Shown here piece by piece: positions 22,742 through 63,127 of a stretch of DNA of 64,000 nt. The translations under genes were made by a program, and so were the position numbers. The DNA is from an uncultured Selenomonas sp. (GTDB lineage Bacteria; Bacillota; Negativicutes; Selenomonadales; Selenomonadaceae), in the NCBI GenBank assembly GCA_902780535.1, contig CACZFT010000017.1, positions 1-64,000 of the forward strand, written 5' to 3'. The notes beneath the pieces are model-generated. The model worked only from the letters and a program-made list of their open reading frames with translations. It was not told the origin of the DNA and made no database searches. Each line of letters begins with the position of its first letter. Position 1 is the first letter of the stretch.

Positions 22742-22918
22742 GCCTCCCTCTAGAGGGAGGGGGACCGCGAAGCGGTGGAAGGAGTAGTAAGATGCTGAAG
22801 CCGAACGAGTATGCTGTCGTTGCCAAAGTCCTTTAGCAACATGACGCATGCTTGTTTGACTCCAGCACCCAACTCTCCCCCAGTCAGCTTCGCTGACAGC
22901 CCCCTCAGAGAGGGGGCC
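22742..22918. repeat. Palindromic MITE/REP-like element, copy R1 (full length)
   Basis: About 177 nt forming one long imperfect palindrome. Left end: CCTCCCTCTAGAGGGAGG hairpin, then ACCGC-GAA-GCGGT. Centre: GTTGC...GCAAC hairpin. Right end: GTCAGC-TTC-GCTGAC, then CCCCTC...GAGGGG. Left and right halves are inverted counterparts. It is closely similar to R3 along the whole length. No ORF is seen inside, so it must move or spread in trans, if at all. Confidence 0.88.
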
Positions 22919-22951
22919 AGAGGATTGTCGATATGTTGCGCGTTAGAACTC

Positions 22952-22980
22952 TTGTGTATTTCTATCAGAAATGCTAGGAT
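22952..22980 (+). promoter_or_regulatory. Promoter of L,D-transpeptidase gene
   Basis: TTGTGT, 17-nt spacer, TAGGAT with an upstream TGC (extended -10). Lies about 60 nt before the start codon. Confidence 0.55.
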
Positions 22981-23039
22981 AACAAAGGATTCATTCATTT
23001 TCATCATTTCAACTTCTACAGAGAAAAGAGTCTTTCACC

Positions 23040-24278
23040 ATGAACAAACACCATCTCACCGCGGCCATCCTGAGCGCCGCTCTCATCACCACGCCGTTCT
23101 CGGCTGCTTTCGCTGCTGAGCAGGCTGCTCCGGCCACGACGGCTGCCACCACGAGCACGACGACGGCCGCAACGCCAACCGCCGCTCCGGCTGCCACGAC
23201 GCCCGCTGCGACGACGCAGACCACGACGGCAACGACGACGACGACCACCACCACGACCCAGTCCACGACGGCCGAGACGCCGACGGATGATGAGGCCGTG
23301 ATTGACAGCCGCAAGATCAGCATCAACCTCGCAGCCCGCTCGCTCGCCGTCTACGAAGGCCAGAAGCGCATCCGCCTCTATCCCATCGGCCCGGGCAAGG
23401 CTTCGACGCCGACGCCGGTCGGCTATTTCAAAGTCGAGTCGAAAGACCTCAACCCGACGTGGACGGATCCGACGGATCCCGAGTATTCCATCCCGTCGGG
23501 CGACTCGAATCCGCTCGGCTATCGCTGGATGGAAGTCCAGGGCAATTACGGCATCCACGGCACGAACAAACCGGAGTCCATCGGCCACTATGTCTCGAAT
23601 GGCTGCATCCGCATGAATGAGAAGGACGTCGAGGACGTCTTCGACCTCGTCAAAGTCGGCACGCCCATCGAGATTACGTACAACCGCATCGTCGTCGAGA
23701 AAACGCCGGACGACCGTATTGCGTTCTACGTCTATCCAGACGGCTACGGCCGCCAGCCGCTCGATGTCGAAGAAGCGACGAAATGGCTCAAGGGCTATGG
23801 CGTGCAGAACTTCATCAGCGACGAAGACATCGAGAAGAAAATCGAGGCATCGGACGGTGAGCCGACGTACATCGGCAAGGTCTACAACATCACGGTCGAT
23901 GGCAAGAAGCTCCAGAACAAGGCCGTCGATCAGGATGGCATCACGTATCTGCCGGCCATCGACCTCGCAGATGCCGCGGGCGTGAACCTCGGCTGGGACG
24001 AGAAGTCCGAAGTCCTCTTCAGCACGGTCGGCAAGGCTACGGGCTACAACAAGAAGGACGTGCTCTACTGCAACGCCGATGACGTGCAGACGCTGTTCCA
24101 CCTCGACGGCGGCCTTTCGGGCAAGCAGTATGTCTATCATAAAATGACGACGGCTCCGGCAGCGGCCACGACGACGACGGCAGCAACGACGACGACGGAA
24201 ACGCCGGCAGCTGCGACGACGGCCACGGCTGCTCCCGCAACGACGGCTGCGGCAACGTCTGCACCTGCCACGAAATAA
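23040..24278 (+). CDS. L,D-transpeptidase (YkuD domain), secreted
   Basis: 412 residues. Signal peptide at residues 1-25 (AALITTPFSAAFAAEQ). Then a Thr/Ala-rich low-complexity stretch at about 30-80, including an eight-threonine run. The YkuD domain follows (about 88-225) with the catalytic HGTN and SNGCIRM motifs, the Cys being the nucleophile. A domain resembling a copper-amine-oxidase-type repeat (YNITVDGKKLQNKAV; GITYLPAIDLADAAG) follows at about 280-350, and a second Thr/Ala-rich tail ends the protein. The enzyme makes 3-3 cross-links in peptidoglycan or attaches proteins to it. The flanking ACG/GCG-rich DNA tracts are simple-sequence and could expand or contract. Confidence 0.93.
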   Translation: MNKHHLTAAILSAALITTPFSAAFAAEQAAPATTAATTSTTTAATPTAAPAATTPAATTQTTTATTTTTTTTTQSTTAETPTDDEAVIDSRKISINLAARSLAVYEGQKRIRLYPIGPGKASTPTPVGYFKVESKDLNPTWTDPTDPEYSIPSGDSNPLGYRWMEVQGNYGIHGTNKPESIGHYVSNGCIRMNEKDVEDVFDLVKVGTPIEITYNRIVVEKTPDDRIAFYVYPDGYGRQPLDVEEATKWLKGYGVQNFISDEDIEKKIEASDGEPTYIGKVYNITVDGKKLQNKAVDQDGITYLPAIDLADAAGVNLGWDEKSEVLFSTVGKATGYNKKDVLYCNADDVQTLFHLDGGLSGKQYVYHKMTTAPAAATTTTAATTTTETPAAATTATAAPATTAAATSAPATK

Positions 24279-24312
24279 TCTGTAACCATTTGGAAAAGCA
24301 GGAGGGAATCCC

Positions 24313-26864
24313 TTGAAAAAGCGTTTCGTCATCCTCGACGGCAGCAGTCTCTTCTTCCGGGCATTCTTCGCCCTGCCGCCGCTCACGTCTCCGACGGGCG
24401 AATACACGAATGCCATCTTCGGCTTCGCGAACATGTTCCTGAAGCTCTGGGAAGAGCTGAAGCCGGACGAGCTCGTCATCGCATTTGACAAGAGCCGCCA
24501 TACGTTCCGTACGGAGCTTTATCCCGAGTACAAAGGCACGCGCGACAAGACGCCGGACGAGCTCAAGAGCCAGATCCCTCTGCTGGAGGAATTTTCTGCG
24601 ACGCTCGGTGTGACATTTCTCGAAAAGGACAACTACGAAGCCGACGACATCATCGGCACGCTTGCGACGCAGGCGGCAGCCGCAGGCTATGACGCGAGCG
24701 TCGTCACGGGTGACCGCGATGCGCTCCAGCTCGTGCGGCCAGGTCTTCGCGTGCTCATGACGAAGAAGGGCATTTCCGACCTCAAGGAATACGACGAGGC
24801 GGCGTTCACGGAAGAATACCAGATGGAGCCCATAAAGCTCATCGACCTCAAGGGTCTCATGGGCGACACGGCCGACAACATCCCGGGCGTCCCGGGCGTT
24901 GGGCCGAAGACGGCGACGAAGCTTCTTCTGGAATACGGCACGCTCGAAAACGTCCTCGACCACGCGGGCGAGGTCAAAGGCAAGAAGCTTCAGGAGCGCC
25001 TGACGACGTTTGCCGAGCAGGCAAGGCTCTCAAAGACGCTGGCCACCATCAACTGCAGCGTGCCAGACCTCGATGCGCCGGGCGCTTACGGCGTCCACCC
25101 CGACACCGCGAAATTCACGACATTCTGCCAGCGCTACAACCTCAAAGCCGTGCTGACGCGCGGCAAGAAATTGCTGGCAAAGCTGGCAGCTGCGGAAAAA
25201 GGCGGTGCGCTGACGCTTTCTGCCGATGGCGGGACGAAAACCACGCCTGCAAAAACAGGCAAGGGCACGAAGAAAGCCGCATCCGATGCGCCAGCGATGC
25301 CCGACCTTTCCAAAATCGATGTCGTCACGCCGGACGGCCATATCGTTTTCGACTGGAAAGCCTGCCTCCATGCAGGTCTGTCCTTCGATGATGGCAAGCA
25401 TGTCGATGACCTCAAGCTCATGGCATACCTGCTGCATCCCGAGGCGACGGAATACACGATTCCTGCGCTTCTCGCGGAATTCTTCCCCGAAGAAGTACAG
25501 CCAGAAACCGGTCTTCTGCCTCCCTCTCTGGGGGATAAGCAGACGCAAGGCGCTTCAGCGCCTATGCGGTCGCTTATGCCTTGGCAGGGGGACCGCGAAG
25601 CGGTGGTGGGTGCCGTTCGCGCTGCCTACGAGCGCCTTCAGCCGCTGATGCGCTCGCAGCTTGACGCGCTCGGCCTCACGAAGCTCTACGAGGACATCGA
25701 GCTGCCGCTCGTGCCCGTGCTTTTCGAGATGGAGCAGACCGGCGTCTTTGTGAACCGCGACCACCTCGCGGAAAAAGCCGAGGTCATCGGCGACCGCATC
25801 AAGGGGCTCGAAGACGACATCTACACGCTTGCGGGCAAGACGTTCAAAATCAATTCGCCGAAACAGCTCGGCGCTGTGCTGTTTGAAGACCTCGGCCTGC
25901 CGCCCGTCAAGAAAACGAAGACGGGCTACTCGACGAATGCCGAAGTCCTCGAGACGCTCCGATATCAGCACCCGATTATCGAGTGCATCCTGTCGTACCG
26001 TCTCTGGACGAAGCTCAAATCGACGTATCTCGACGGCATCGCGGCGCTCATTCATCCCGAGACGGGCCGCGTCCACACGAGCTTCAACCAGACCGTCACG
26101 GCGACGGGCCGCCTCTCAAGCTCCGACCCGAATCTCCAGAACATCCCCGTGCGCACGGAGCAGGGCAAGGAAATCCGCGCTCTGTTCGAGCCGGGAGAGG
26201 GCTACGACGCCATGCTCTCGGCTGACTACTCGCAGATTGAGCTGCGCCTGCTCGCGCACATGTCGCAGGATGAAAATTTCATCGAGGCATTTCGCGAGGG
26301 GCAGGACATCCACGCGCGCACGGCCGCCGAAGTCTTCCACGTCCCCATTGACGAGGTCACGAGCGAGGAACGCCGCCGCGCGAAAGCCGTGAATTTCGGT
26401 ATCGTCTACGGCATCAGCGACTACGGCCTTTCGCGCGACCTTCACATCTCGCGCAAGGAAGCGGCAGGCTACATCGACGAATACTTCGCTCGCTATCCGG
26501 GCGTCAAATCGTTCATGGATAAGGTTGTTGAGGAAGCGCATCAGACAGGCGCCGTCACGACGATGTACGGCCGCCGCCGCGAGCTCCCCGCCATCCATAG
26601 CAAGAACTTCAACCAACGCTCGCTCGCCGAGCGCATGGCGTCATCAAAATTGCCATGATCCGCGCATCGCGCATGCTCAAGGAAGCAAACGTCAAGAGCC
26701 GCATCCTGCTTCAGGTTCACGACGAACTCGTGCTCGAAGTGGTGAACGAAGAAATCCCGAAAGTCACGGAGATTCTCAAAGAAGCGATGGAGCACGCAGC
26801 AGAATTGTCCGTCCCGCTCGTGATTGACGTCAATGTAGGGAAGAACTGGGCGGAGGCGAAATAG
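24313..26864 (+). pseudogene. polA: DNA polymerase I (polA), frame broken near C-terminus; carries in-frame repeat
   Basis: TTG start at 24313 after AGGAGGGA. The 5'-3' exonuclease domain (FVILDGSSLFFRAFFALPPL; TGDRDALQL; GVPGVGPKTATKLL) spans residues 1 to about 260. The middle domain is short and lacks a recognisable proofreading DxE motif. A 93-nt palindromic repeat is read in frame at about residues 403-433. The polymerase domain has SADYSQIELRLLAH (motif A) and RRRAKAVNFGIVYG (motif B). At 26638-26641 the frame is lost: after LAERMA the expected MNTPIQGSAAD-type block is missing, by estimate 34 nt. The C-terminal part with motif C (LLQVHDELVLEV) continues in another frame to 26864. Otherwise the gene looks functional, so an assembly artefact is possible. 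Confidence 0.9.
25518..25610. repeat. Palindromic element copy R2, in frame inside polA
   Basis: 93 nt, exactly 31 codons. It carries the left-end hairpins of the family (CCTCCCTCTCTGGGGG; ACCGC-GAA-GCGGT) but a different core, GATAAGCAGACGCAAGGCGC and its inverted partner, which is shared with R5. Translation gives PPSLGDKQTQGASAPMRSLM and PWQGDREAVVG, joined without interrupting the polA frame. It lies in the middle domain, before the LYEDIELPLVPVL helix. Confidence 0.85.
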
Positions 26865-26890
26865 GTCGCGAAGATCGGCTGCAAACTCCA

Positions 26891-27067
26891 GCCTCCCTCT
26901 AGAGGGAGGGGGACCGCGAAGCGGTGGTGGGAGTAGTAGGATGCAGTAGCCGAACGAGCATACTGTCGTTGCTAAAGTCCTTTCGCAACGTTCGGGATGC
27001 TTGTTTGTCTCCAGCATCCAACTACTCCCCCAGTCAGCTTCGCTGACAGCCCCCTCTAGAGGGGGCC
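26891..27067. repeat. Palindromic MITE/REP-like element, copy R3 (full length)
   Basis: 177 nt, same length and layout as R1: CCTCCCTCTAGAGGGAGG, ACCGC-GAA-GCGGT, central GTTGC...GCAAC, GTCAGC-TTC-GCTGAC, CCCCCTCTAGAGGGGG. Differences from R1 are scattered single bases. It fills most of the polA-coaE gap; the rest of that gap shows only the coaE ribosome-binding region. Confidence 0.88.
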
Positions 27068-27153
27068 TGCCTATTAACTTCATGACATTGAGAGTGTGTC
27101 GGAGGTAGGAACTTGGCAATTTTATCGAACGCAATCTGCGAAGGGGATAGCGT

Positions 27154-27831
27154 ATGAAAATCATCGGCCTCACCGGCGGCATCGCCTGCGGCAAATCCAC
27201 CGTTTCCAATATCTTCAAATCCCTCGGCGCGAAAATCCTCGACGCCGACGCTATGGCGCATGAGCTCATGCAGCCGAAGCAGCCGCTCTGGAACCTCTAT
27301 GTCTCTCATTGGGGCGAAAGCATCCTGAAGCAGCCGGGCGGCACGCTCGACCGCCGCGCCATCGGGGCGATTGTTTTCAATGACCTCGCTGAGCGCCAGT
27401 GGCTCGACAGCGCCGCCCATCCCGTCCTCCTCGCCGAGGCGCAGCGCCGTCTCGCGGCTCTTGAAAAGCGGCATACAGAAGTTGCGGTACTTGATGTACC
27501 GCTTCTTTTTGAGTCTGGATGGGATCGCCTCGCCGATGAAATCTGGGTCACCTCCGTCTCCGAGGACGTCCAGCTGCAGCGCCTCATGGCGCGCAACGGC
27601 TGGACAGAGTCCGAAGCCCGTGCCCGCATCGCCGCCCAGATGCCCCTCGCCGAAAAGCGCGCCCGCGCCGACGTCATCATCGACAACAGCGGCCCGCTCG
27701 ACAACCTCCGCCAGCAGGTTTTGCAGGCGTATCAAAACTTGAAGCAGGACATATCCATCGGAACGGAGCCCCAGAGTCTGCAGCCCCCCTCATTGAGGGG
27801 GGACGGGCCGCGTGAGCGGCGGGGGGAGTAG
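27154..27831 (+). CDS. coaE: Dephospho-CoA kinase
   Basis: 225 residues. Last step of coenzyme A synthesis, phosphorylating the 3'-OH of dephospho-CoA. The P-loop IGLTGGIACGKSTVSN is at the N-terminus, then LDADAMAHELM, and VLDVPLLFESGWD of the substrate lid. The canonical protein ends near residue 205 (VLQAYQNLKQD). The last ~18 residues (QPPSLRGDGPRERRGE) and the TAG stop are encoded by palindromic repeat R4, so the original C-terminus was replaced or extended by the element. Start ATG 27154 follows GAAGGGGATAGC. Confidence 0.95.
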   Translation: MKIIGLTGGIACGKSTVSNIFKSLGAKILDADAMAHELMQPKQPLWNLYVSHWGESILKQPGGTLDRRAIGAIVFNDLAERQWLDSAAHPVLLAEAQRRLAALEKRHTEVAVLDVPLLFESGWDRLADEIWVTSVSEDVQLQRLMARNGWTESEARARIAAQMPLAEKRARADVIIDNSGPLDNLRQQVLQAYQNLKQDISIGTEPQSLQPPSLRGDGPRERRGE

Positions 27832-27835
27832 TAGG
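27781..27835. repeat. Palindromic element, half copy R4, overlapping coaE 3' end
   Basis: Left-half element only: CCCCCCTCATTGAGGGGGG hairpin, then GCCGC-GTGA-GCGGC, then GGGGGGAGTAGTAGG. It encodes the end and stop codon of coaE and may also form the transcript's 3' structure. Confidence 0.8.
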
Positions 27836-44379: not shown

Positions 44380-44872
44380 ATGGATCGTGGGAAAATTCCG
44401 CTAGCAAGGCTCTATCGCCGTCTGTTTTCGAGGTTCTGGCCCGAAAGGCTCAAAGCCTACGATATGATTGCGGACGACCTCGAGCAGCGCGGATGCCGTC
44501 TCTTCAAGATCAAGCAGCTCATGCCGCATGAAATCGACGCGAAGCTCCTGACCGGCCAGATTCGTCGCCGAACTTGAGAAGCTTTACGCCTTCCTGCTGC
44601 AGCCGCTCCGTTGCGAAAAGAGTCGCGGCCACCGGCTCGTCAAGAGGCTCCTGCTCGGCATCTATGACGAGGATGACACGGCGGCGCGGCAGCAGATCGA
44701 AGCGTTCTTCCAGAAGAAGCCGCGCGCGGAGCTTTCTGTCCTCGAGAACATGTTCCGCTGCTATGGCGCGGCGATGTGGGAAGTGCGCGAGCGTGCTGTC
44801 CGCGTGCGGGGCACGGATGTCGCGGACGAACCCGAGGAAGAACAAGCGGCCGAAGCGCATGGCATCGCTTGA
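44380..44872 (+). pseudogene. Hypothetical protein, frameshifted
   Basis: ATG 44380, preceded by GTGAGGGAG, opens a frame (MDRGKIPLARLYRRLFSRFW; LKAYDMIADDLEQRGCRLFK) that stops at 44577. From about 44561 the next frame continues as FVAELEKLYAFLLQPLRCEK and then LLLGIYDEDDTAARQQIEAF to 44872, ending in an acidic tail. Codon use is alike in both parts, so this was one gene of about 165 codons with a small indel near 44556-44563. It is alpha-helical and charged, without a signal peptide or membrane segment. I do not recognise the family. Confidence 0.65.
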
Positions 44873-44914
44873 AAACCATCCTGTCACCATGTAACATGAC
44901 TTTTCTGGATTCTG

Positions 44915-44943
44915 TATACAAAACGCGAAATGTGTTGTATGAT
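44915..44943 (+). promoter_or_regulatory. Promoter before small gene at 45005
   Basis: TATACA, 17-nt spacer, TATGAT. Moderate match to consensus. Confidence 0.45.
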
Positions 44944-45004
44944 AAGGACAACAAAGGGAGCGCTGATGGGCAGTGCCCCAGAAAGAAGAAGGAGGACGAG
45001 CAAG

Positions 45005-45322
45005 ATGTTTGCATGGGTAGAGGTGACGCGCGAGGAGCGCGGAAAGAAAGAGATCAGTTACAGCCTGGGTCATGACCTGGCACTCGACGGGAAGATCACG
45101 TACGACAGCCGCACGGGCAAGATCGAGCTCGTCAAGCTTTCGGACGGCGCGAGCCCGCAGGCAACGCGCGACTTCATGGACGCGCTGAAAGAGCGCCTCG
45201 CGAATGAGCCTTGGGGCTCGGGCCAGGCCATCTGCGTGTCGTACGAGCGCGCAGGCGAAGACAAGAGCCTGTTCCATCGCTGGCAGATGGACAAGCAGGG
45301 CTCGTTCATGCGCTTCGGCTGA
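45005..45322 (+). CDS. Small conserved-looking hypothetical protein
   Basis: 105 residues. Start ATG 45005 has AAGGAGG nine nt upstream, a strong ribosome-binding site, and a strong terminator follows, so it is a real monocistronic gene. Sequence: FAWVEVTREERGKKEISYSL, then GKITYDSRTGKIELVKLSDG, a helix (ATRDFMDALKERLANEPWG) and a C-terminal strand region (AICVSYERAGEDKSLFHRWQ). No signal peptide, cysteine pair or membrane span. Family not recognised; a small alpha/beta cytoplasmic protein. Confidence 0.75.
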   Translation: MFAWVEVTREERGKKEISYSLGHDLALDGKITYDSRTGKIELVKLSDGASPQATRDFMDALKERLANEPWGSGQAICVSYERAGEDKSLFHRWQMDKQGSFMRFG

Positions 45323-45336
45323 TCCGGAACATCGGC

Positions 45337-45373
45337 GAGAGGTGCCGCACTTCGGTGCGGCACCTCTCTTTTT
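45337..45373 (+). terminator. Strong intrinsic terminator
   Basis: Perfect 14-bp stem GAGAGGTGCCGCAC / GTGCGGCACCTCTC with a TTCG tetraloop and T-run. Confidence 0.95.
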
Positions 45374-45417
45374 CTTTGTCACAATAGCTTTCTTTTATAC
45401 CTCATGTTTATTAATAA

Positions 45418-45447
45418 TTGGAATTTATCTGAAAAATGCGATACAAT
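45418..45447 (+). promoter_or_regulatory. Promoter of NADH dehydrogenase gene
   Basis: TTGGAA, 18-nt spacer, TACAAT, in an AT-rich stretch about 50 nt before the start codon. Confidence 0.65.
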
Positions 45448-45499
45448 AACCATGTGAAGAAAAGAACGTAACGAAATGAGTTCTGAGGGGGACATTTCG

Positions 45500-46753
45500 A
45501 TGGAAAAGAAGAATGCAGAAATCGTCATTGTCGGTGCCGGCATCGGCGGCGTGCGTGCCGCGCAGGAGCTCGCGGGAAAGAAAGGCGTTCATGTGACGCT
45601 GATTGACCGCAACAACTATCAGCTGTTCCCGCCGCTTCTTTACCAGGTCTCGACGGCAACGCTCGCGACGGGCGAGATTGCATATCCCGTGCGCGACTTC
45701 TTCCGCCATGTGGACAATGTTGATTTCCGCCTCGGCGATGTCACGGGCTTTGATACGGAAAACAAGGTCGTACAGACAAATCATGGCGATGTCGCCTATG
45801 ACGAACTCGTCATCGCGACGGGCTCGACGACGAACTTCTTCGGCAACGCGAATGTCGCGAAGCATGCATTCCCGATGAAGACGATGCAGGAGGCGCTCGA
45901 CATCCGCAATCAGCTCATCAGCTGCCTCGAACTCGCGGATCAGGAGCAAGACCCCGCGCGCCGCAAGGAACTGCTGACGTTCGTCTGCGTTGGCGGCGGC
46001 CCGACGGGCGTCGAGGAAGCCGGTGCCATCTCGGAGCTCATCTACAAGTCGATGCGCAGCGGCTACCATCATCTCGATTTCTCGGAAGTGGACATCAAGC
46101 TGCTTGAAGGCACGCCGCGCCTGCTCGCGATGATGCCGGAGAAGCTCAGCGCGGAGACGGCTGACCTGCTGCGCAAGAAAAAGGTCGATGTGCGCCTCGA
46201 GACGATGGTCACGGACTACGACGGCCATACGCTGACGCTGAAGGGCGGCGAGACCATCCAGACGGCGACGGTCATCTGGGCGGCAGGCGTCAAGGCATCG
46301 CCGGTGACGGCGGCACTCGGCGCGGACTATGACCGCGGCGGCCGCATCATTGTGAACAAAGACCTTACGGTCAAAGGCCTGCCGCATGTCTACGCTATCG
46401 GCGACAGCGCGAGCTTCACGGAGCAGCCGGGCGCACGCCCGCTCGCAACGGTCGCGCCCGTCGCGATGAAGGAAGGCATCACCTGCGCACAGAACATCCT
46501 CGCACGCCTCGCGGGCCGCGACGCGGAAATCTTCCATTATAAGGACATGGGTGCGATGGCGACGATCGGCCGCAGCTCGGCCGTGCTCTCGGTCGGCAAA
46601 ATCCAGGCCAAGGGCTTCTTCGCCTGGTCGGCATGGCTCTGGGTGCATCTCATCCGCCTCGCCGGCACGTACGCCAACGTCTCGGTTGCGCTCAAATGGG
46701 TGCTGAACTACTTCAACAACGCCCGCCTCGGCCGCATCATCGTCGAGCACTGA
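45500..46753 (+). CDS. Type II NADH:quinone oxidoreductase (NDH-2)
   Basis: 417 residues. Single-subunit FAD enzyme passing electrons from NADH to quinone without proton pumping. FAD motif EIVIVGAGIGGVRAAQEL at the N-terminus, NYQLFPPLLYQVSTATLATG (quinone-site region), second dinucleotide motif FVCVGGGPTGVEEAGAISEL, and the FAD-binding HVYAIGDSASF. The C-terminal amphipathic segment (FFAWSAWLWVHLIRLAGTYA) is the typical membrane anchor. ATG 45500 follows GAGGGGGAC. Monocistronic between terminators. Confidence 0.95.
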   Translation: MEKKNAEIVIVGAGIGGVRAAQELAGKKGVHVTLIDRNNYQLFPPLLYQVSTATLATGEIAYPVRDFFRHVDNVDFRLGDVTGFDTENKVVQTNHGDVAYDELVIATGSTTNFFGNANVAKHAFPMKTMQEALDIRNQLISCLELADQEQDPARRKELLTFVCVGGGPTGVEEAGAISELIYKSMRSGYHHLDFSEVDIKLLEGTPRLLAMMPEKLSAETADLLRKKKVDVRLETMVTDYDGHTLTLKGGETIQTATVIWAAGVKASPVTAALGADYDRGGRIIVNKDLTVKGLPHVYAIGDSASFTEQPGARPLATVAPVAMKEGITCAQNILARLAGRDAEIFHYKDMGAMATIGRSSAVLSVGKIQAKGFFAWSAWLWVHLIRLAGTYANVSVALKWVLNYFNNARLGRIIVEH

Positions 46754-46775
46754 ACAAGATCATTTTGCCCTCCCC

Positions 46776-46817
46776 ACACGGGGCTGCTCTCACACACAGG
46801 CAGCTCCGTGTTTTTTT
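46776..46817 (+). terminator. Intrinsic terminator after NDH-2 gene
   Basis: ACACGGGGCTG / CAGCTCCGTGT stem with a long loop and seven T. Confidence 0.85.
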
Positions 46818-46828
46818 GCCTTTGAGAG

Positions 46829-46882
46829 ATAACACATTTTTTACATGCACGTAACAGGCAGGCGCCCACCTTGTGCTAAGGT
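46829..46882 (+). promoter_or_regulatory. PHO-box-like promoter of metallophosphoesterase gene
   Basis: Three boxes ATAACA, TTTACA and GTAACA start at 46829, 46840 and 46851, exactly 11 nt apart. Seventeen nt later comes an extended -10, TGC-TAAGGT (46874-46882). The spacing is the same as at 52326-52379. Direct repeats one helical turn apart overlapping the -35 position are the pattern of PhoB/PhoP-type activators. Confidence 0.65.
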
Positions 46883-46934
46883 GAATATAAATGATGTTCA
46901 TCTCGTAGGAATCGGACAGGAGGGCTTCTATATC

Positions 46935-48482
46935 ATGCAGTTTTGCAAGAATAAGAAACGTTTGACCGCGTACATCCTCGCAGCACTTTGTGCCGCTTCG
47001 ACGGCGTATGCCGCGACAGAGCATTGGAGCGATGCGTCGCTGACGCCGGATGCCGTCGTGGCGACGCAGGCCGGTGACGAGAATTGGAGCCAGTGGAAGA
47101 CGAGCTGGGAAACCATCAAGACGGATTATGAGCAGGTCTCGATGGCACCGGGCAAGAATGCGTCGCAGATGAATTTCGCCTGGTACTCGAAAGAGCAGCC
47201 GACGCATGCCGAAGTCCGCATTTCGGAAAATGCGGACATGACGGGTGCCGCGGACTGGAAGGGCACATCGAAGGAAGGCAGCGTCGTGGACGGCGTGCAG
47301 TTCTTCACGAACAAGGTCACGGTCCGCAGCCTGAAGCCGGAGACGACGTACTATTATCAGGTGAAGGTTGATGGCGCTTGGAAGGATGTGCAGTCTTTCA
47401 AGACAGGCAATCCGGACGACTTCTCGTTCATGTATGTCGGCGACCCGCAGATTGGCGCATCGAAGGGGCAGACGTCTTCCGAAGGCAACAAGCAGGACGG
47501 CGAGCTCGCAGCTCGCAACGATGCCTACAACTGGAACAAGACGCTGAACAGTGCGCTCGCGCAGCATCCGGAAATCAATTTCCTCGTTTCCCCGGGCGAC
47601 CAGATCAACGAGCCGGCCGAAGACCAGTCGGCGGGCAAGATTCAGTTGCAGGAGATGCAGTATGCAGGCTATCTGTCGGCCAAAGCGCTCAGGAGCCTGC
47701 CGGAAGCGACGAGCATCGGCAACCATGACAGCATGACGGCGGGCTACCAGAACCATTTCAACGTGCCGAATCCGTTCACGGAGGAAGCGACGCCGACGAC
47801 GGCCGGCCACGGCTATTTTTACACGTATGGCAACGCGCTCTTCATCATGATCAATGCGAACAACTACAATGCGGCCGACCATGAGGCGCTGATCAAGAAA
47901 GCCATCAAGGCGCATCCGGACACGAAGTGGCGCATCGTCGTCATGCATCAGGACATCTACGGCAGCGGCAAGGATCACTCCGATTCTGACGGCATCCTGC
48001 TCCGCACGCAGCTCACGCCGATTTATGACGCGAACAAGATCGACGTTGTCCTGCAGGGCCATGACCACACGTATGCGCGCACGTACCAGCTTTCTGGCGA
48101 TGGCAAGCAGCATGCAGATTTCGCCGAGTACAAGGTCGCGGGCCAGCAGGGCCAGCATCACAACCTCATCGATGCGGCGATGAAAGACAATGACAAGAAG
48201 TCCATCTATGAAAGCCAGAATCTCTGCTACACGATTGCCGACATGAAGCAGGGCACGCTCCGCAACCCGAAAGGCGTGTTCTACATGTCGTCGAACTCTG
48301 CGACGGGTTCGAAGTTCTACGAGCTCATCCCGCAGCAGCAGGACTACATCGCGGCGCGCAATCAGGACTGGCGCCCGACGTACTCCGTCATCCACATCAC
48401 GAAAAACTCCTTCACGATTGATACGTACGATGTGGAAACCGGCAAGCCGATTGATGAATCGTACAGCATTGTCAAAGACTGA
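46935..48482 (+). CDS. Secreted metallophosphoesterase (purple acid phosphatase-like)
   Basis: 515 residues. Signal peptide 1-26 (KKRLTAYILAALCAASTAYA). An N-terminal fibronectin-like domain (EVRISENADM; VTVRSLKPETTYYYQVKVDG) precedes the calcineurin-type core with all metal motifs: YVGDPQIGA, SPGDQINEP, SIGNHDS, VMHQDIY and LQGHDHTYAR. It should release phosphate from organic phosphoesters in the periplasm or outside. ATG 46935 has AGGAGGG ten nt upstream. The PHO-box-like promoter suggests induction by phosphate shortage. Confidence 0.92.
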   Translation: MQFCKNKKRLTAYILAALCAASTAYAATEHWSDASLTPDAVVATQAGDENWSQWKTSWETIKTDYEQVSMAPGKNASQMNFAWYSKEQPTHAEVRISENADMTGAADWKGTSKEGSVVDGVQFFTNKVTVRSLKPETTYYYQVKVDGAWKDVQSFKTGNPDDFSFMYVGDPQIGASKGQTSSEGNKQDGELAARNDAYNWNKTLNSALAQHPEINFLVSPGDQINEPAEDQSAGKIQLQEMQYAGYLSAKALRSLPEATSIGNHDSMTAGYQNHFNVPNPFTEEATPTTAGHGYFYTYGNALFIMINANNYNAADHEALIKKAIKAHPDTKWRIVVMHQDIYGSGKDHSDSDGILLRTQLTPIYDANKIDVVLQGHDHTYARTYQLSGDGKQHADFAEYKVAGQQGQHHNLIDAAMKDNDKKSIYESQNLCYTIADMKQGTLRNPKGVFYMSSNSATGSKFYELIPQQQDYIAARNQDWRPTYSVIHITKNSFTIDTYDVETGKPIDESYSIVKD

Positions 48483-48515
48483 CACGAGGGCTGACGATAT
48501 CATTGGATCAACAGG

Positions 48516-48550
48516 CTGCCTCCCTTCTTTTCGAGGGGAGGCAGTTTTTT
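48516..48550 (+). terminator. Intrinsic terminator after metallophosphoesterase gene
   Basis: CTGCCTCCC / GGGAGGCAG stem and six T. Confidence 0.85.
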
Positions 48551-48568
48551 GCGAGGAGCGTTTTCTAG

Positions 48569-49621
48569 ATGAAACATCCATTTTTCAAACGTCTGCTTTT
48601 TGTCTTTGCGATGCTGGCTCTCGTGGCGTTCTGTGTCCAGCTCAATGACGTCGCAAAGCCGCAGCTCGTCAATACGCAGGGGCGCACGTTCGAGCGGGCG
48701 ACGGTCACGGAAATCGTGCGCGACAACTTGCAGGAGAATGGCAGCCGCATCGGCGACCAGATTGTACAGCTCCGGCTCGAGGACGGCACGACAGTCGAGG
48801 CGAACTGTCCGAATGGCCTTCTTTTCGGTACGGTCTGCGAGCCCGGCATGCAGGTCATCGTCATGGCGAGCCGCGCGGGCGAGCTCACGTCCTGCACGGT
48901 CTACAGCTATGACCGCTCGAAAGCCGTCTTCGGCTTCATCCTGTTCTTCTGCCTCCTGCTGGCCGTCGTCGGCGGGCGGAAGGGCTTTCCACTGCTGCTG
49001 CACGGCGTTGCGCCGATTGTTGCTGCTGTCGTGACGGCCTGCCTCGTGCTTTCGATGACGGTCTGGCTCATCTGCGGCACGACGCGGAAAGCGCTGGCCG
49101 CAGGGCTCGCCTCGCTCGGCGGCGTCGTGGCGGCCGGGCTGTCGGCCGAGCTCTTCGGGCAGGCTGCGCATCTCTCGGGCTACAATGTCACGAACATCGA
49201 ATCACTGCTCTTTGTCGCGCAGAACACGAAGATTGATGTCGGCGGGCTGCTGTTCGCGGGCATCCTCTTTGCGAGTCTCGGCGCGGTGCTCGACATCGCG
49301 ATGGATGTTTCGGCGGCCGTGACAGAGCTCCATGCGGCCAATCCACAGAAAGACCGGAAGGCGCTTTTCATGAGCGGCATGCATGTCGGGCAGGATGTCA
49401 TGGGCACGATGGCCGCAACGCTGATTCTCGCGGTCTTCGGCGGCTCGCTCGGCGCGTGGGTCATCGACTACGTCTACGACCTGCCGCTCCTTCAGCTTTT
49501 GAATTCCAACGGCCTCGACATCGTGCTCATGCAGGGCCTTTCGGGCGGCATCGGCGTCATCCTGACCGTCCCGTTCGCGGCATCTGCCTCGTCGTGGCTG
49601 CTGCTGCGGAAAGGCGCGTAA
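48569..49621 (+). CDS. YibE/F-like multi-pass membrane protein
   Basis: 350 residues. N-terminal TM helix, then a short extracytoplasmic OB-like domain (FERATVTEIVRDNLQENGSR; QIVQLRLEDGTTVEANCPNG), then six or more TM helices with the family stretch GGLLFAGILFASLGAVLDIA and MDVSAAVTELHAANPQKDRK, MHVGQDVMGTMAATLILAVF. YibE/F proteins are widespread in Firmicutes; their transport or signalling function is not established. The two-component genes follow 60 nt later and may be co-transcribed. Confidence 0.9.
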   Translation: MKHPFFKRLLFVFAMLALVAFCVQLNDVAKPQLVNTQGRTFERATVTEIVRDNLQENGSRIGDQIVQLRLEDGTTVEANCPNGLLFGTVCEPGMQVIVMASRAGELTSCTVYSYDRSKAVFGFILFFCLLLAVVGGRKGFPLLLHGVAPIVAAVVTACLVLSMTVWLICGTTRKALAAGLASLGGVVAAGLSAELFGQAAHLSGYNVTNIESLLFVAQNTKIDVGGLLFAGILFASLGAVLDIAMDVSAAVTELHAANPQKDRKALFMSGMHVGQDVMGTMAATLILAVFGGSLGAWVIDYVYDLPLLQLLNSNGLDIVLMQGLSGGIGVILTVPFAASASSWLLLRKGA

Positions 49622-49681
49622 GAAGCCCGTTCGCAGAGCCGTTTATCCAATCGTTATCCTTTCGCGGTAGGATGGAGGAAA

Positions 49682-51253
49682 ATGAGGAGAGGAGAGGTGC
49701 GGATGCATCTTCATCACTTTCGGAATGTGCCGCTCGGCAAGCGGCTCATTGCGATGGCATTCGTGCTGACGTTTCTGCCGATGCTCGTGCTCACGACGCT
49801 CGGCGGGCTGATTTTTGCGAGTATCAATTATCTGGGTTCTGGCTGGGAAAGCTGGGCCATGCAGCTCTGGCCGAAGACATCGCCGATTGCCGTCCATTTC
49901 GCGCTCGGGCGCATCCGCGATGTCGCCGACCGGCCTGTGTTTAACTTTCACGAAATGCAGGAACAGTGCTGGCTGCTCGAAGGGAGCGGCATCTCCGTGT
50001 TCGTGCGGCAGGACGGTCAGGACATCTATTGCTCGGACGGTGCCGAGCCTGCCGTCATCGAGGCGGCGACACTCGGCAAGACGGGCGCGGGTCATTCTGC
50101 GCTCGTCTGGGATGACAGCGGCTTTGCCTATACGTATCGCACGAACCGGATGGAAGGAAGCAGCGTCGAAGTCTATGCGGCAGGCGATGTGCCCATCAAG
50201 CAGTCGCCGCTGACAGAAGCGCAGCGCGAAGTCCAGCGCCAGGGGCGCTTCCTGCTCTATGCCATCTTTGGCGCGGGCCTGCTCGCGGCGCTGCTGCTCG
50301 GCGTGGCATTTGCGCGCATCCTGACGCATCAGGTCTTGCGGCCGCTCGCTGCCATGCGGCGGAGCGCGGCGGCCATCGAGCATGGCAACTACGATGTGCC
50401 AGCCGTTCCAGAGGGCACGCAGGCGCAGGACGATGAAATCGGCGAGACGTGCCGGAGCTTTGACGACATGCGGCGCGGCCTGCGGGCGGCGCGCGAGGAA
50501 CGCGAGCGCTACGAGCGCAACCGCAAGGAGCTGCTCGCGGGCATCTCGCACGACCTGCGCACGCCGCTCACGGCACTGCGTGGCTATGCGAGCGGCATCC
50601 TTGACGGCATCGCGCGGACGGAGGAAAAGCGCACGCACTATGTGACGCAGATTTATCGGTCGTCCGAAATCCTGCAGCATCTCGTGGAAAATCTCTTTCT
50701 GTTCTCGAAGCTCGATCTCGGCCGCGTAGAATTCGATCAGGCGACCGTCGACCTGCGCGCGTATTTCGCAGATTTTATTGCCGAGCGCGCACCGTGGTAT
50801 GCGGATCAGGGACTCGCGCTGCATCTGGAGCCATCCGATGACACGGAGCCGCTGCTCGTCCGCCTCGATCCGCAGGAGTTCCAGCGCGTCGTGGAGAATA
50901 TCTTGGGCAACAGCCGCAAGTATGGCGGCGAGCAGCCGTCCGTCGATATTTCCATCGGAGAAACCGAGGAAACAGAGGGCGCGGGCGGCAGGACGGCCGT
51001 CGTGCGCTTTGCCGACCACGGCCCCGGCGTGCCGGAAGCGGAGCTCGGCAAACTCTTCGAGAGCTTTTACCGCACGGACAAGGCGCGCAGCCAGACGGCG
51101 AAGGGAAGCGGCCTCGGCCTCGCCATCGCGCGCGGCATCGTCGAAGGCATGGGCGGCAGGATTCACGCTGAGATGACGGCGGGCGGCGGCCTGACAGTCG
51201 TCCTGTCGTTCCCCGTTTTGCAGGCAGAAGAAGGAAAGGAAGATGTCGAATGA
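49682..51253 (+). CDS. Membrane sensor histidine kinase
   Basis: 523 residues. TM1 at about 20-45 and TM2 at about 197-218 enclose a ~150-residue extracytoplasmic sensor of unknown ligand. HAMP (THQVLRPLAAMRRSAAAIEH) follows, then the dimerisation/phosphoacceptor motif AGISHDLRTPLTALRGY with the phosphorylated His, and a HATPase domain with N-box NILGNSRKY, G1 DHGPGVPE and G2 GSGLGLAI. The start is ambiguous: ATG 49682 (GGAGG 3 nt away) or ATG 49703 (MHLHHFRN, GAGAGG 4 nt away). It overlaps the response regulator by 4 nt. Confidence 0.95.
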   Translation: MRRGEVRMHLHHFRNVPLGKRLIAMAFVLTFLPMLVLTTLGGLIFASINYLGSGWESWAMQLWPKTSPIAVHFALGRIRDVADRPVFNFHEMQEQCWLLEGSGISVFVRQDGQDIYCSDGAEPAVIEAATLGKTGAGHSALVWDDSGFAYTYRTNRMEGSSVEVYAAGDVPIKQSPLTEAQREVQRQGRFLLYAIFGAGLLAALLLGVAFARILTHQVLRPLAAMRRSAAAIEHGNYDVPAVPEGTQAQDDEIGETCRSFDDMRRGLRAAREERERYERNRKELLAGISHDLRTPLTALRGYASGILDGIARTEEKRTHYVTQIYRSSEILQHLVENLFLFSKLDLGRVEFDQATVDLRAYFADFIAERAPWYADQGLALHLEPSDDTEPLLVRLDPQEFQRVVENILGNSRKYGGEQPSVDISIGETEETEGAGGRTAVVRFADHGPGVPEAELGKLFESFYRTDKARSQTAKGSGLGLAIARGIVEGMGGRIHAEMTAGGGLTVVLSFPVLQAEEGKEDVE

Positions 51254-51939
51254 AGCGAATCCTGATCGTCGAAGACGACAGCGCCATCCGCGAGCTCGAA
51301 CAGGACTATCTTGAGGCGGCGGATTTTTCCGTCGATACGGCGGGCGAAGGGCGTAAGGGGCGTCAGATGGCGCTCGAGGGCGACTACGACCTCATCGTGC
51401 TCGACATCATGCTGCCATTCGTCGATGGCTTTACGATCTGCCAGGCCGTGCGCGCACAGAAAGAAATCCCCATCCTCTTCGTCACGGCGAAACAGGAGGA
51501 TGGGGACAAGATCCGGGGACTCGGCTATGGTGCGGATGACTACATCGTCAAGCCATTCAGCCCGACGGAATTCGTTGCGCGGGTCAAGGCGCATCTCGCG
51601 CGCTACGAGCGCCTGACGGGCGAAAAGGAAAAGCAGCATCGCTCGCTTGTCTTCGGCCTGCTTGAAATTTTGCCCGAGGAGCACCGCGTCTTCCGCGGCG
51701 GCGAGGAGATTTTGCTGACGCATCGCGAGTTCGAGCTTCTGCTGTTTCTCGCGGAGAACGCGGGCCTCGTCTTTTCGATGGACGCGATTTTCGAAAAAGT
51801 CTGGGGCCTCGACGCCATCGGCGACACGGCCACCGTCCGCGTCCACATCAACCGCTTGCGCGAGAAGATCGAGCCGCATCCGCAGAAGCCCATCTATATC
51901 GAGACGGTCTGGGGCGCGGGATACCGGTTCAAAGGGTGA
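51250..51939 (+). CDS. OmpR/PhoB-family response regulator
   Basis: 229 residues. Receiver domain with acidic pocket EDDS, phosphoacceptor Asp in LIVLDIMLPFVDGF, conserved Thr (FVTAKQ) and Lys (YIVKPFSP). The winged-helix DNA-binding domain (LTHREFELLLFLAENAGLVF; TVRVHINRLREKIEPHP; TVWGAGYRF) follows. This family binds direct repeats about 11 nt apart. Its gene lies between two genes with such repeats, so it is a candidate for their regulator, but a PhoP elsewhere is equally possible. Confidence 0.95.
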   Translation: MKRILIVEDDSAIRELEQDYLEAADFSVDTAGEGRKGRQMALEGDYDLIVLDIMLPFVDGFTICQAVRAQKEIPILFVTAKQEDGDKIRGLGYGADDYIVKPFSPTEFVARVKAHLARYERLTGEKEKQHRSLVFGLLEILPEEHRVFRGGEEILLTHREFELLLFLAENAGLVFSMDAIFEKVWGLDAIGDTATVRVHINRLREKIEPHPQKPIYIETVWGAGYRFKG

Positions 51940-51964
51940 AGGAACAGAATTTCATAACAGCAGT

Positions 51965-52273
51965 TCAGCGCTCGGCGCGCGTGGCATCGTCATGCAGCTG
52001 GGCGCATTTTTCTACGATGAGGCGCACGACCCACGAGGCCGGACGCGAGGGACGGGCGTAATACCATTGTTCGACCGTGCGCGCCGGGGCGCCGAGCAGT
52101 TTTTCGAGCTCGCGCGGGCCGATGCCCCAGAGGTCGCGCATGACTTTCATGGGCTCGTCGGCGCAGGCGATGCGGTCGAGTTCGGCAGCTTTCTTGAGCT
52201 CGGCGATGTCGACGTCGAACCCGGTCTTCTTCTGGAACCAGTTCGGGATGTCTTCGCGTGTGACTTTCGGCAT
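51965..52273 (-). CDS. Small HTH-domain protein
   Basis: 102 residues on the minus strand, converging with the response regulator. N-terminal helix region (VTREDIPNWFQKKTGFDVDI) and C-terminal helix-turn-helix-like segment (LEKLLGAPARTVEQWYYARP) followed by SRPASWVVRLIVEKCAQL. It resembles short XRE-like or antitoxin-like regulators, with no adjacent toxin. Start ATG 52273 has AAGGAGGGCGTC upstream. Its promoter overlaps the PHO-box-like repeats of the divergent gene. Confidence 0.75.
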   Translation of the reverse strand: MPKVTREDIPNWFQKKTGFDVDIAELKKAAELDRIACADEPMKVMRDLWGIGPRELEKLLGAPARTVEQWYYARPSRPASWVVRLIVEKCAQLHDDATRAER

Positions 52274-52304
52274 GAGACGCCCTCCTTTGAAAATGGTTGC
52301 CTTT

Positions 52305-52332
52305 ATTCTATCACAGTTCTATGGATTTACAA
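52305..52332 (-). promoter_or_regulatory. Promoter of small HTH gene
   Basis: On the minus strand TTGTAA, 16-nt spacer, TAGAAT. The -35 hexamer overlaps the first PHO-like repeat at 52326-52331, so a factor bound there would interfere with this promoter. Confidence 0.5.
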
Positions 52333-52379
52333 CTTCTTTACGTTTTGGTAACACGACAGCCGCTCTCCCTTGCTAACAT
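52326..52379 (+). promoter_or_regulatory. PHO-box-like promoter of HD-domain gene
   Basis: Boxes TTTACA, TTTACG and GTAACA start at 52326, 52337 and 52348 (11-nt steps), then 17 nt, then extended -10 TGC-TAACAT (52371-52379). Same length and spacing as at 46829-46882. Confidence 0.65.
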
Positions 52380-52430
52380 AAAAAAGTAGACGTGTTTTTG
52401 CATCCGTTTCATGCGACAGGGGGCATTTTT

Positions 52431-53540
52431 ATGGCACAGGGTTCTTTGAGCCGTCGTTCGTTTCTCAAGCTTTCGGCGGGCGCACTGGCTGGCATGGCGT
52501 TGTGGAAGTTCGACCATCCGGTCCATGCGTCTGCGGCGGAAGTCTCGCAGGTTTCTGTTTCGGAGCTGCCGCTCCGGGCGGAGGAGGCAGCGCAGAAGTC
52601 AGCGCTGATTGCGGAGAATTGGGAACGCTTGGAAGATGACGTGGCGAGTTTGCATGACGGCGCTTTGCAGAGGAAAGTGCAGGGGGTCTTCGACAATCCG
52701 GCACCGACATTTCTCAGGCAGTATGGCGCGGGCGATGCGGCGCGGGTCTATGAAGAGCTGCAGGCGAAAGGCCTCGTCGACCCTGCGAAGACGGATGCGG
52801 CACATCTTCTGCCGCCCATCGAGGATGCGGGCAAGACGCCGCAGCCGTTCCGTACGGCGCCGGGCAGCGGCTATGGCAGCCATCATCCATATCCGGGCGG
52901 CCTCGTGACGCATACGGCGGCGAATGTAGAAATCCTGAAGGGCATTGATCAGGCGTATCAGACGGTCTTCGGCTATGACTGCGACTATGACGTGGCCGTG
53001 GCGGCCGAGCTCCTGCACGACCTCGCGAAGCCGTATGTCTTCCAGTGGCAGGAGGATGGCAGCTCGCTCAAGGAATACACGATTGCGGGCACGGGCGCGC
53101 ATCATATCTTCAGCATCGCCGAATCCATCCAGCGCGGCCTGCCGAAAGAGGTCGTCATCGCGCAGGCCTGTGCGCACAATCATCCGGGCTCTGCCAGCGA
53201 TGCGAAACAGGTCGAGGACTGGCTGGCGGCTGCGAGTATTCTTGCAGGCAAAGACCCGGTCGCGCTCGGCCTGCTGACGCAGGACGGCAAGCTTACGGAA
53301 CCCGTCGGCGAGGAAGGCTTCCTCGTCCATCTCGGCGACCATGACTGGGTGCTCAGCGGTTTCGCGGCGAAGAAATGCGTGGACTATCTCAAGGACTATG
53401 CGACGCAGAAGCTCGGCGTGGCGACAAGCGACACGAAACGCATCAACGCCGTGCGCAACTACGCAGGCAGCCAGCTCAGCTACATGCGCCTCTATCAGGC
53501 GCTCACGCAGGGGACGCGGCAGGCGGATGCGCTGATGTAA
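52431..53540 (+). CDS. Tat-exported HD-domain metal-dependent hydrolase
   Basis: 369 residues. N-terminal twin-arginine signal SRRSFLKLSAGALAGMALW implies folding in the cytoplasm before export, as for metal enzymes. HD-domain motifs: HHPYPGGLVTHTAANVEIL with the first His, AAELLHDLAKPYVFQW (HD), AHHIFSIAESIQRG and AQACAHNHPGSASD. HD proteins are usually phosphohydrolases of nucleotides or similar; periplasmic members are less common. The substrate is unknown. ATG 52431 follows ACAGGGGGC. The upstream PHO-box-like promoter supports a role in phosphate scavenging. Confidence 0.88.
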   Translation: MAQGSLSRRSFLKLSAGALAGMALWKFDHPVHASAAEVSQVSVSELPLRAEEAAQKSALIAENWERLEDDVASLHDGALQRKVQGVFDNPAPTFLRQYGAGDAARVYEELQAKGLVDPAKTDAAHLLPPIEDAGKTPQPFRTAPGSGYGSHHPYPGGLVTHTAANVEILKGIDQAYQTVFGYDCDYDVAVAAELLHDLAKPYVFQWQEDGSSLKEYTIAGTGAHHIFSIAESIQRGLPKEVVIAQACAHNHPGSASDAKQVEDWLAAASILAGKDPVALGLLTQDGKLTEPVGEEGFLVHLGDHDWVLSGFAAKKCVDYLKDYATQKLGVATSDTKRINAVRNYAGSQLSYMRLYQALTQGTRQADALM

Positions 53541-53556
53541 TCGTGCATCACATCCG

Positions 53557-53669
53557 TCATGCTTGTGAGACAGCCTTGCGGCATAAGCGAACGCATAGGC
53601 GTTGGAACGCCTTGCGCCTGCTTATCCTTCAGTCAGCTTCGCTGACAGCTCCCTCTGAGAGGGAGCCTT
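53557..53669. repeat. Palindromic element copy R5
   Basis: Starts with the arm ATGCTTGTGAGACAG, then the core GCATAAGCGAACGCATAGGC with inverted partner GCGCCTGCTTAT, which is shared with R2. It ends with GTCAGC-TTC-GCTGAC and the CTCCCTCTGAGAGGGAG hairpin. No ORF. Confidence 0.82.
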
Positions 53670-53672
53670 TTT
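53648..53672 (+). terminator. Terminator formed by the right end of repeat R5
   Basis: GCTCCCTC / GAGGGAGC hairpin followed by six T, downstream of the HD-domain gene. Confidence 0.7.
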
Positions 53673-53770
53673 TATGGCTTCCTGCAAATTTTTGTTTGCT
53701 GATGGCGAGGCGCTTCGAATCGTGTATAATAAAAAGGAGACTTTGAAATGAGGTGATTCCCATTCCGGAT

Positions 53771-57193: not shown

Positions 57194-57201
57194 GGGGGCG
57201 T

Positions 57202-57762
57202 TCATATCTGCACGAGTTCTCGTGAGCATTTGCCGACGCAGCCTTCCATCCAGTCCTCTTCGAAATCTTTCGTCGGGGTGAAGGTCCTGAGGACGTCGTG
57301 CCCGATGGTGATGAAGATGTCTTCAGAGAACCAGACTGGCTTTTCGAAAGAGATTTCAAGCCTCCAGAAGTCGAGCAGGATGCCGCGCGTGACGTAGACG
57401 TCGTAAATCTGCTCGCCGTTTTCAAACAGTTCCTGATGCTCTTGCACGAGATGGATGTCCTGGATGGTGCGGTTCACGGGGATGGTCTGCAGATGGCCAT
57501 AGGAGTCGACCGCCGTTTCGCGCGTCGTCGAGAGCGTCATACGGGCTACGTCGTCGACGTAGCCATAATAGTCCAGAGGCTCTGTGAAATTGTAGAGATA
57601 ATAGGTCTGATCTTCGATTTGGAGGATGGCGGCTGGATAGGCCGTGAGATTTAGATGTGAATAGCCCTTTTTTTCACACTGGAGCAACACGAGCCGCTTT
57701 TCTCTCCAGTTGCGGAGCAGTGCCATTTCCCGTTCGGTAAAGCGCAAGTCCTGACGAATCAT
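57202..57762 (-). CDS. Hypothetical protein, minus strand
   Basis: 186 residues, family not recognised. ATG 57762 is selected since AGGAGGG lies 6 nt upstream; a longer frame upstream has no such site. The protein is cytoplasmic-looking, rich in aromatic residues and beta strands: LVLLQCEKKGYSHLNLTAYP, ILQIEDQTYYLYNFTEPLDY, FRAMES such as GILLDFWRLEISFEKPVWFS, and a C-terminal FEEDWMEGCVGKCSRELVQI with two Cys. It converges on dnaE with 8 nt between stops, and shares a divergent promoter region with the carboxypeptidase gene. Confidence 0.75.
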   Translation of the reverse strand: MIRQDLRFTEREMALLRNWREKRLVLLQCEKKGYSHLNLTAYPAAILQIEDQTYYLYNFTEPLDYYGYVDDVARMTLSTTRETAVDSYGHLQTIPVNRTIQDIHLVQEHQELFENGEQIYDVYVTRGILLDFWRLEISFEKPVWFSEDIFITIGHDVLRTFTPTKDFEEDWMEGCVGKCSRELVQI

Positions 57763-57788
57763 AGCGTTCCCTCCTCGTTTTTTTCTCC

Positions 57789-57817
57789 AGTATAAAGGAC
57801 GGCAAAAGGGAAGGCAA
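57789..57817 (-). promoter_or_regulatory. Promoter of minus-strand hypothetical gene
   Basis: Minus-strand TTGCCT, 17-nt spacer, TATACT. It lies back to back with the promoter at 57825, only 7 nt away. Confidence 0.65.
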
Positions 57818-57824
57818 TCCAAGA

Positions 57825-57853
57825 TTGCAAATGCACGACTTGGATGATAGAAT
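57825..57853 (+). promoter_or_regulatory. Promoter of D-Ala-D-Ala carboxypeptidase gene
   Basis: TTGCAA, 17-nt spacer, TAGAAT, about 44 nt before the TTG start. Confidence 0.7.
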
Positions 57854-57896
57854 AAAAAGCATGTAATTATTCGAAGGGGAAGGTTGGATCAGTCCA

Positions 57897-59132: not shown

Positions 59133-59137
59133 TGAAA

Positions 59138-59220
59138 GCCCCCCTCATTGAGGGGGAGGGCCACGAAGTGGCAGGGGGAGTAGTCGGGTGCTGGATACAG
59201 ACAAGCATGCCATCGTTATG
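59138..59220. repeat. Palindromic element, half copy R6
   Basis: CCCCCCTCATTGAGGGGG, then GCCAC-GAA-GTGGC, then GGGGGAGTAGTCGGGTGCTG and an ACAAGCATGCCATCG arm matching the core arm of R1/R3. The right half is missing. It sits directly after the carboxypeptidase stop codon and may terminate its transcript. Confidence 0.78.
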
Positions 59221-59243
59221 TAGTATCACGGGAGGCTATTTTA

Positions 59244-61234: not shown

Positions 61235-61258
61235 TTGTATTCTGCGAAGGAGAAACTC

Positions 61259-63115: not shown

Positions 63116-63127
63116 ACATCATTTCAT

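Follow-up and report, generated by a model that had tools for sequence, protein, structure and literature searches.

The window analysed here, a stretch of 64,000 nucleotides (nt) from an uncultured Selenomonas sp. (assembly GCA_902780535.1, contig CACZFT010000017.1, positions 1 to 64,000), contains two intergenic palindromic elements, R1 and R3, and four partial copies of them, one within polA and another at the end of coaE (Table 1). A sequence-only reading had described R1 and R3 as full-length 177-nt elements resembling miniature inverted-repeat transposable elements (MITEs), equal in length, nearly the same in sequence, each folding as one long imperfect palindrome and implied to be present in many copies. 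The two are indeed 177 nt each and 89% identical across 178 aligned columns (BLASTN E 1.7e-62), and their predicted folds, with hairpins at the termini and a long inner stem, are much more stable than mononucleotide shuffles (z -7.3 for R1 and -9.5 for R3); the partial copies are likewise real. Each element is an inverted pair of units resembling repetitive extragenic palindromes (REPs), and each unit is made of a first hairpin, a second hairpin and a G-rich tail (GGGAGTAGTAGG on the left).

The high copy number was borne out. The genome under study (G000; 2.94 Mb in 223 contigs) has no fewer than 40 copies that align over nearly the whole length, with identities of 81-100%; scoring covered 40 of the 178 initial candidates, so this number is a lower bound. 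A 26-nt pattern of the left hairpin occurs 94 times at up to 3 mismatches, compared with none for the reversed control. Some match was present in 18 of the 60 genomes searched. Among the matches listed, full-length copies were found only in G000 and in G001 (RUG102), G002 and G006, which belong to the same genus, and other genera matched the end hairpins only. An exact search of named genomes with 37 nt of the left end returned 61 stretches, all from the metagenome-assembled genomes RUG12289, RUG102, RUG371 and SUG490, labelled Selenomonadaceae, Veillonellaceae or Selenomonas, which we take, from their isolate names, to be of rumen origin.

The comparison of the flanks of 30 copies in G000 changed the definition of the element, since several of them have a common left flank of 40 nt and a common right flank of 23 nt. 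These arms end outwardly in an 18-bp inverted repeat, YAATGTCATTAAGTTAAG, whose right-end pattern has 39 matches in G000 and none for the reversed control, and 17 elements of 190-245 nt in this genus are bracketed by it on both sides. The 177 nt are thus a conserved core, and intact units mostly measure 238-240 nt; R1 and R3 are MITE-derived, as had been proposed, but the full-length unit is about 240 nt. R3 keeps the right arm only, and R1, which has neither arm, is read as a remnant on that account. With up to 1 mismatch, the end pattern is present in 37 of 189 genomes of the family and in 12 of 30 genera (reversed control, 1 match).

Target duplications were sought around the 46 elements bracketed by both ends in all fetched loci (denoted by L numbers), a set from which R1 and R3 are absent, their ends being missing. 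A 10-bp repeat flanks 23 of the 46 exactly and 29 with up to 1 mismatch. Exact repeats of 7, 8, 9, 12 or 13 bp flank none of them, and one of 11 bp flanks a single element. Cross-paired flanks gave 10-bp repeats in 0.4% (exact) and 2.3% (up to 1 mismatch) of cases; because the targets in this genus resemble each other, the control was rerun inside the genus, where 16 of 31 elements have the exact repeat, compared with 1.0% of controls. A clean empty site is also available in a sister species. In G006, a 238-nt MITE (L078) has TCTCAGAGGG on both sides, whereas the orthologous locus of G002 (L081) shows the uninterrupted hairpin GGCTCCCTCTCAGAGGGAGC and, after it, hairpin 2 of a C-type unit, with a net difference of minus 10; the two flanks align over about 410 nt with identities of 89% and 87%. 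Both kinds of evidence for mobility that the sequence-only reading had proposed to look for are therefore present.

The same data bear on the idea that the elements are immobile intergenic structures (terminators, mRNA stabilisers or chromosome organisers) kept alike by selection or gene conversion. In its favour, the outer hairpins and tails of 63 distinct cores are conserved at 0.91-0.99 and the middle at 0.84, and copies are mostly old and common to G000 and G002, with 26 of 29 comparisons between these genomes occupied. Armed copies contradict it with their duplications and the empty site, and relatives differ in the presence of the core. When cores were compared with related genomes (n = 86, both flanks aligned over at least 100 nt), a core-sized stretch was found in 37 cases, no core in 25, some of them with loosely aligned flanks, and another length in 24; the stretches had been chosen for holding copies, so these are not genome-wide rates, and G000/G002 pairs are counted from both sides. 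Synteny of window positions 44500-64000 yielded coordinates in relatives, of which G001:C97 and part of G006:C5 entered the copy comparison. A conserved RNA was rejected, with no Rfam match at the gathering score and compensatory changes in 1 of 41 pairs; covariation is silent because the pairing arms are nearly invariant. We give the immobile alternative very little credence as a general account, and some copies may have acquired a function later.

The duplications also allowed us to reconstruct 31 targets (from 10- or 11-bp repeats with up to 1 mismatch), and these tend to be hairpins. A perfect stem of at least 5 bp is centred in the duplication in 22 of the 31, versus 8.4% of 5000 random sites, and a perfect stem of at least 7 bp in 16 of the 31, versus 1.0%. 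Most targets in this genus are REP-like hairpins of the CCCTC..GAGGG type, the kind that caps the core, and at L063, L078, L104, L228, L050 and L076 the second hairpin of the REP-like unit is still attached. Two of the targets reconstructed in other genera (L277 and L296) resemble intrinsic terminators, and many single ends there have, as judged by eye, runs of A next to GC stems in their flanks (L233, L240-L243, L247-L249 and L254).

A search with PF01609 of seven genomes of the genus, followed by inspection of 12 loci, revealed an insertion sequence (IS) with the same ends. This 1642-bp element (L228/L250, in G001:C50) has TAATGTCATTAAGTTA at both sides, an open reading frame (ORF) of 522 amino acids and a 10-bp repeat, TCTCAAAGGG, and lies inside an A-type REP hairpin unit. 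Its protein scores 149.6 bits with NCBIfam transpos_IS4_1 (NF033592; cut-off 115) and 97.3 bits with Pfam DDE_Tnp_1 (cut-off 23), and has the YREK motif YRLRWDVETSFRHLK at 400, together with D195, D270 and E407, the choice of catalytic D residues being a reading from the sequence. The spacings Y(2)R(3)E(6)K and D(60-110)D(100-150)E, given as criteria in passages of PMC2266710, are both present, and the ends (-AATR--------WTW----) and 10-bp direct repeats match those listed there for subgroup IS4, an assignment made by ends and repeats rather than by phylogeny. The left end of one MITE (L041) has 22 nt in common with the right end of the IS, 4 beyond the terminal inverted repeat (TIR). Homologues of this transposase at E <=1e-30 occur in 8 of 189 genomes of the family; L250 and L252-L257 have the same ends or close variants nearby, and L251 has weak ends only. 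Two homologues, L253 and L255 (G099 and G103), differ somewhat in their ends, with CAATGGCATTAACTTAAG on one side, and are flanked by repeats of 11 bp, which in one case contain 1 mismatch. Separately, in G001 the same end repeat stands at two contig ends (L290 and L291) and leads there into a different interior (TCTGACCCTGCTTGAATG...), which may belong to another IS or MITE that has these ends.

The origin and spread of REP-like palindromes are usually credited to REP-associated tyrosine transposases (RAYTs), and the sequence-only reading had named a RAYT/Y1 or other transposase with matching ends as the partner to look for; the other transposase was found, as an IS4-family DDE partner, and the RAYT was not. 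Mobilisation as a REPIN (REP doublet forming a hairpin) by a RAYT/Y1 transposase would agree with the inverted pairs of REP palindromes (A...C and B...C), the high copy number and the conserved ends around a variable middle. On the inner side of each unit stands GGAGTAGTAGG, which may or may not correspond to the GTAG or CGTC tag at the foot of REPIN palindromes. The only match to PF01797 (Y1_Tnp) in G000 is, however, beside a tnpB-like gene, and by eye its surroundings are devoid of the ends of the element; none was detected in G002 (90% complete), G004 or G006 (99%), of which G002 and G006 are copy-rich. A RAYT/IS200-type partner was rejected on these grounds, and since DDE-type 10-bp duplications and TIRs already explain the movement, we regard this alternative as highly improbable.

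We favour, with a probability of about 0.87, the reading that R1 and R3 are cores of a non-autonomous, hairpin-targeting MITE of the IS4 family (subgroup IS4) that carries its own type of target. An IS4-type DDE transposase, supplied in trans by an IS such as L228, would cut the MITE of ~238-240 nt and paste it into short hairpins, duplicating 10 bp. The hairpins at the ends of the core (CCCTC..GAGGG) would be of the kind that the transposase prefers in this genus, so that each insertion would add landing sites, an amplification that may be the benefit of carrying them, and later copies would land in older REP units and not in genes. After insertion the long palindrome would degrade, its arms being lost or decaying, and the core could collapse, by deletion between the end hairpins, to a hybrid hairpin of ~20 nt.

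One such collapse is seen between intact arms in G000 (L151:7970-8047), where both arms surround GCCTCCCTCTAGAGGGGGCC, the left half of the terminal hairpin of the A-type unit joined to the right half of that of the C-type unit. Hybrid hairpins of ~20 nt also stand in G006 (L178) opposite a full core in G000 (L162), and in G001 (L199) opposite a full core in G006 (L185). At another locus of G000 (L148), a later MITE with the repeat CCCTCAATGA lies inside the collapse scar, at a place where G001 (L191) keeps a core in the opposite orientation.

These sites help to weigh the strongest competitor, namely that the 177-nt core is mobile by itself, in a REPIN-like manner with machinery unspecified, and was captured once between IS4-type ends, copies such as R1 having arrived armless. 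Among the 87 cores kept of 142 after score and flank filters, 11 have both arms, 12 the left only, 8 the right only and 56 neither. The armless state is common to both members in all the examined orthologous pairs that have it, and armless REP-like singlets are common, one of them in frame in polA. Bare cores are also present or absent between relatives, as in L185 versus L199, with 500-bp flanks 99-100% identical. At this site and at L162/L178, however, the coreless genome keeps the hybrid hairpin, which fits deletion better than insertion; no direct repeat was noticed by eye around bare cores, and there is a gradation from partial arms to bare copies. We therefore consider independent movement of the core unlikely. 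The flanks of L185:5493-6668 in G006 and of about 11497-11512 of L199 in G001 are in themselves unusual, since compared sites elsewhere are usually about 90% identical, and they reflect either recent transfer or mixed bins.

Several results weigh against the IS4-type MITE reading and must be set beside the evidence above. The 56 armless cores are as relevant here as to the competitor, and arm loss was not caught in the act, because all 17 orthologous pairs (17/17) agree in arm state. Median identity to the consensus is 90.4% in bare cores versus 91.5% in both-armed ones (p 0.018), a slight difference, and divergence of cores with any arm versus none gives p 0.079. R1 probably descends from an armed copy. 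Of the bracketed elements, 17 of the 46 have no 10-bp repeat at up to 1 mismatch, although two of the 17 have 11-bp repeats; 9 of the 31 targets have no 5-bp stem, and in a plain folding test 14 of the 31 beat shuffles at p 0.05. The near absence of covariation points the same way. A transposase at E <=1e-30 to that of L228 was not found in G000, G002, G003 or G006, all draft bins. Many contigs of G003 and G006 stop some 60-210 bp into one of the ends, a pattern expected from nearly identical elements present in many copies, and the IS may thus have been dropped from these bins. At L033, two ends with matching 10-bp repeats enclose a 1126-bp gene cassette (by eye, a histidine-phosphatase-like frame); it was rejected as a mobile cassette since G001 and G006 have the same gene as a resident, together with both flanks, and its exact repeat is probably the coincidence of two separate insertions.

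Table 1. Core elements, arms and REP-like units located in the window.
Feature	Position	Strand	Remarks
R1	22742..22918	+	177-nt core; A-type double hairpin left, C-type right; both arms missing
R1 terminal hairpin hp1-A	22742..22760	+	GCCTCCCTCTAGAGGGAGG
R1 hairpin hp2-A	22764..22776	+	ACCGCGAAGCGGT
R1 hairpin hp2-C	22883..22897	+	GTCAGCTTCGCTGAC
R1 terminal hairpin hp1-C	22899..22917	+	
A-type REP-like unit in frame within polA	25517..25610	+	split by second palindrome, about 25537-25586; partial core match 25583-25610
Possible R3 left-arm remnant	26879..26890	+	CTGCAAACTCCA vs ATTCAAACTCCA of intact copies, by eye
R3	26891..27067	+	177-nt MITE core
R3 right arm	27068..27090	+	TIR TATTAACTTCATGACATTG at 27072-27090, 3 mismatches
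B-type REP-like unit	27781..27835	+	supplies C-terminal end of coaE reading frame
C/D-type REP-like unit	53620..53667	-	split by second palindrome family
B/C-type REP-like half element	59137..59217	+	

At the R1 site, G002 has the same copy (L135), another REP-like element takes its place in G001 and G006, and G003 has no repeat; at the R3 site, other REP-like material is present in G001 and G006 and no repeat in G003. Because relatives hold other REP-like material there, both intergenic regions are regarded as repeat hot spots. Among G001, G002, G003 and G006 we found no clean empty site for R1 or R3 themselves, G003 being repeat-free with no clean junction.

The REP-like unit in polA is uninterrupted in G001 and G006 and absent in G003, and the contig of G002 ends inside it. 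REPs inside genes, replication and repair genes included, are already known (passages of PMC3733652), and the in-frame unit is reminiscent of Rickettsia palindromic elements. At 26639/26640 of the window, polA has 34 bp fewer than in G006 and its frame is shifted, which reflects either genuine damage to the gene or an error of assembly. Some REP-like units are interrupted by a second family of palindromes, about 50 nt long (ATAAGCAG...CGCTTATGCC), which often directly follows a G-run; in the window it lies within polA and at about 53571-53630, and it also occurs at L260, L270 and L281.

G003 and G204, the latter from another genus, also have MITEs with these ends, of 293-349 nt and 177-263 nt respectively, which likewise fold as nested long palindromes but differ in sequence. 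If nested double-hairpin interiors of differing sequence occur in the MITEs of at least two genera, namely the present one and g3 (with G204), carrying the target would be a trait under selection. We put forward only tentatively the broader idea that the REP-like populations of Selenomonadaceae were built by DDE transposons and not by RAYTs, target-mimicking MITEs multiplying the landing pads and collapse recycling them into bare hairpins. What we describe is a REP-like family of high copy number linked to ends of the IS4 type, to duplications of 10 bp and to insertion into hairpins; in two of its genomes no Y1 transposase was detected. A preference for hairpins should for the most part spare genes from insertion, and an element carrying its own target would, if our reading is true, make its own safe sites.

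Bacterial MITEs such as RUP, NEMIS, ERIC and MITEAba12 are likewise short, non-coding and TIR-bearing elements moved by a TIR-recognising transposase; the family described here differs in having a core made of the target type in duplicate. Other bacterial MITEs typically target a short word, whereas this one targets a hairpin. REPINs and bacterial interspersed mosaic elements (BIMEs) with their RAYT (PMC3116915) are alike in the inverted REP-like pair and the high copy number, but differ from this family, which has DDE-type ends with TIR and 10-bp duplications and has no RAYT. Subgroup IS4, as characterised in passages of PMC2266710 (2008), has ends -AATR--------WTW----, the YREK motif, direct repeats of 10-13 bp and a size of 1400-1650 bp, and some members show strong specificity for the target arm. 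L228 is alike in ends, motif, repeats and size class but is not itself a named element, and those passages describe no MITEs with internal REP-like pairs. In the open-licence literature we found neither an IS4 MITE described as carrying the type of target into which it inserts nor any account of the present family in Selenomonadaceae. A close precedent is ISRm22 of Sinorhizobium meliloti, an IS4-family element with copies at the axis of REP palindromes (PMC1525189, 2006), whose covered passages are silent on ISRm22 itself carrying REPs. IS4 elements in REP palindromes are hence already known; of a MITE whose core consists of the hairpins that it targets, we found no published case in that literature. 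ISRm22 resembles the family described here in that an IS4-family element lies in REP palindromes, and differs from it in its 6-bp duplications, compared with 10-11 bp here, and in that the hairpin donors here are MITEs with the same ends.

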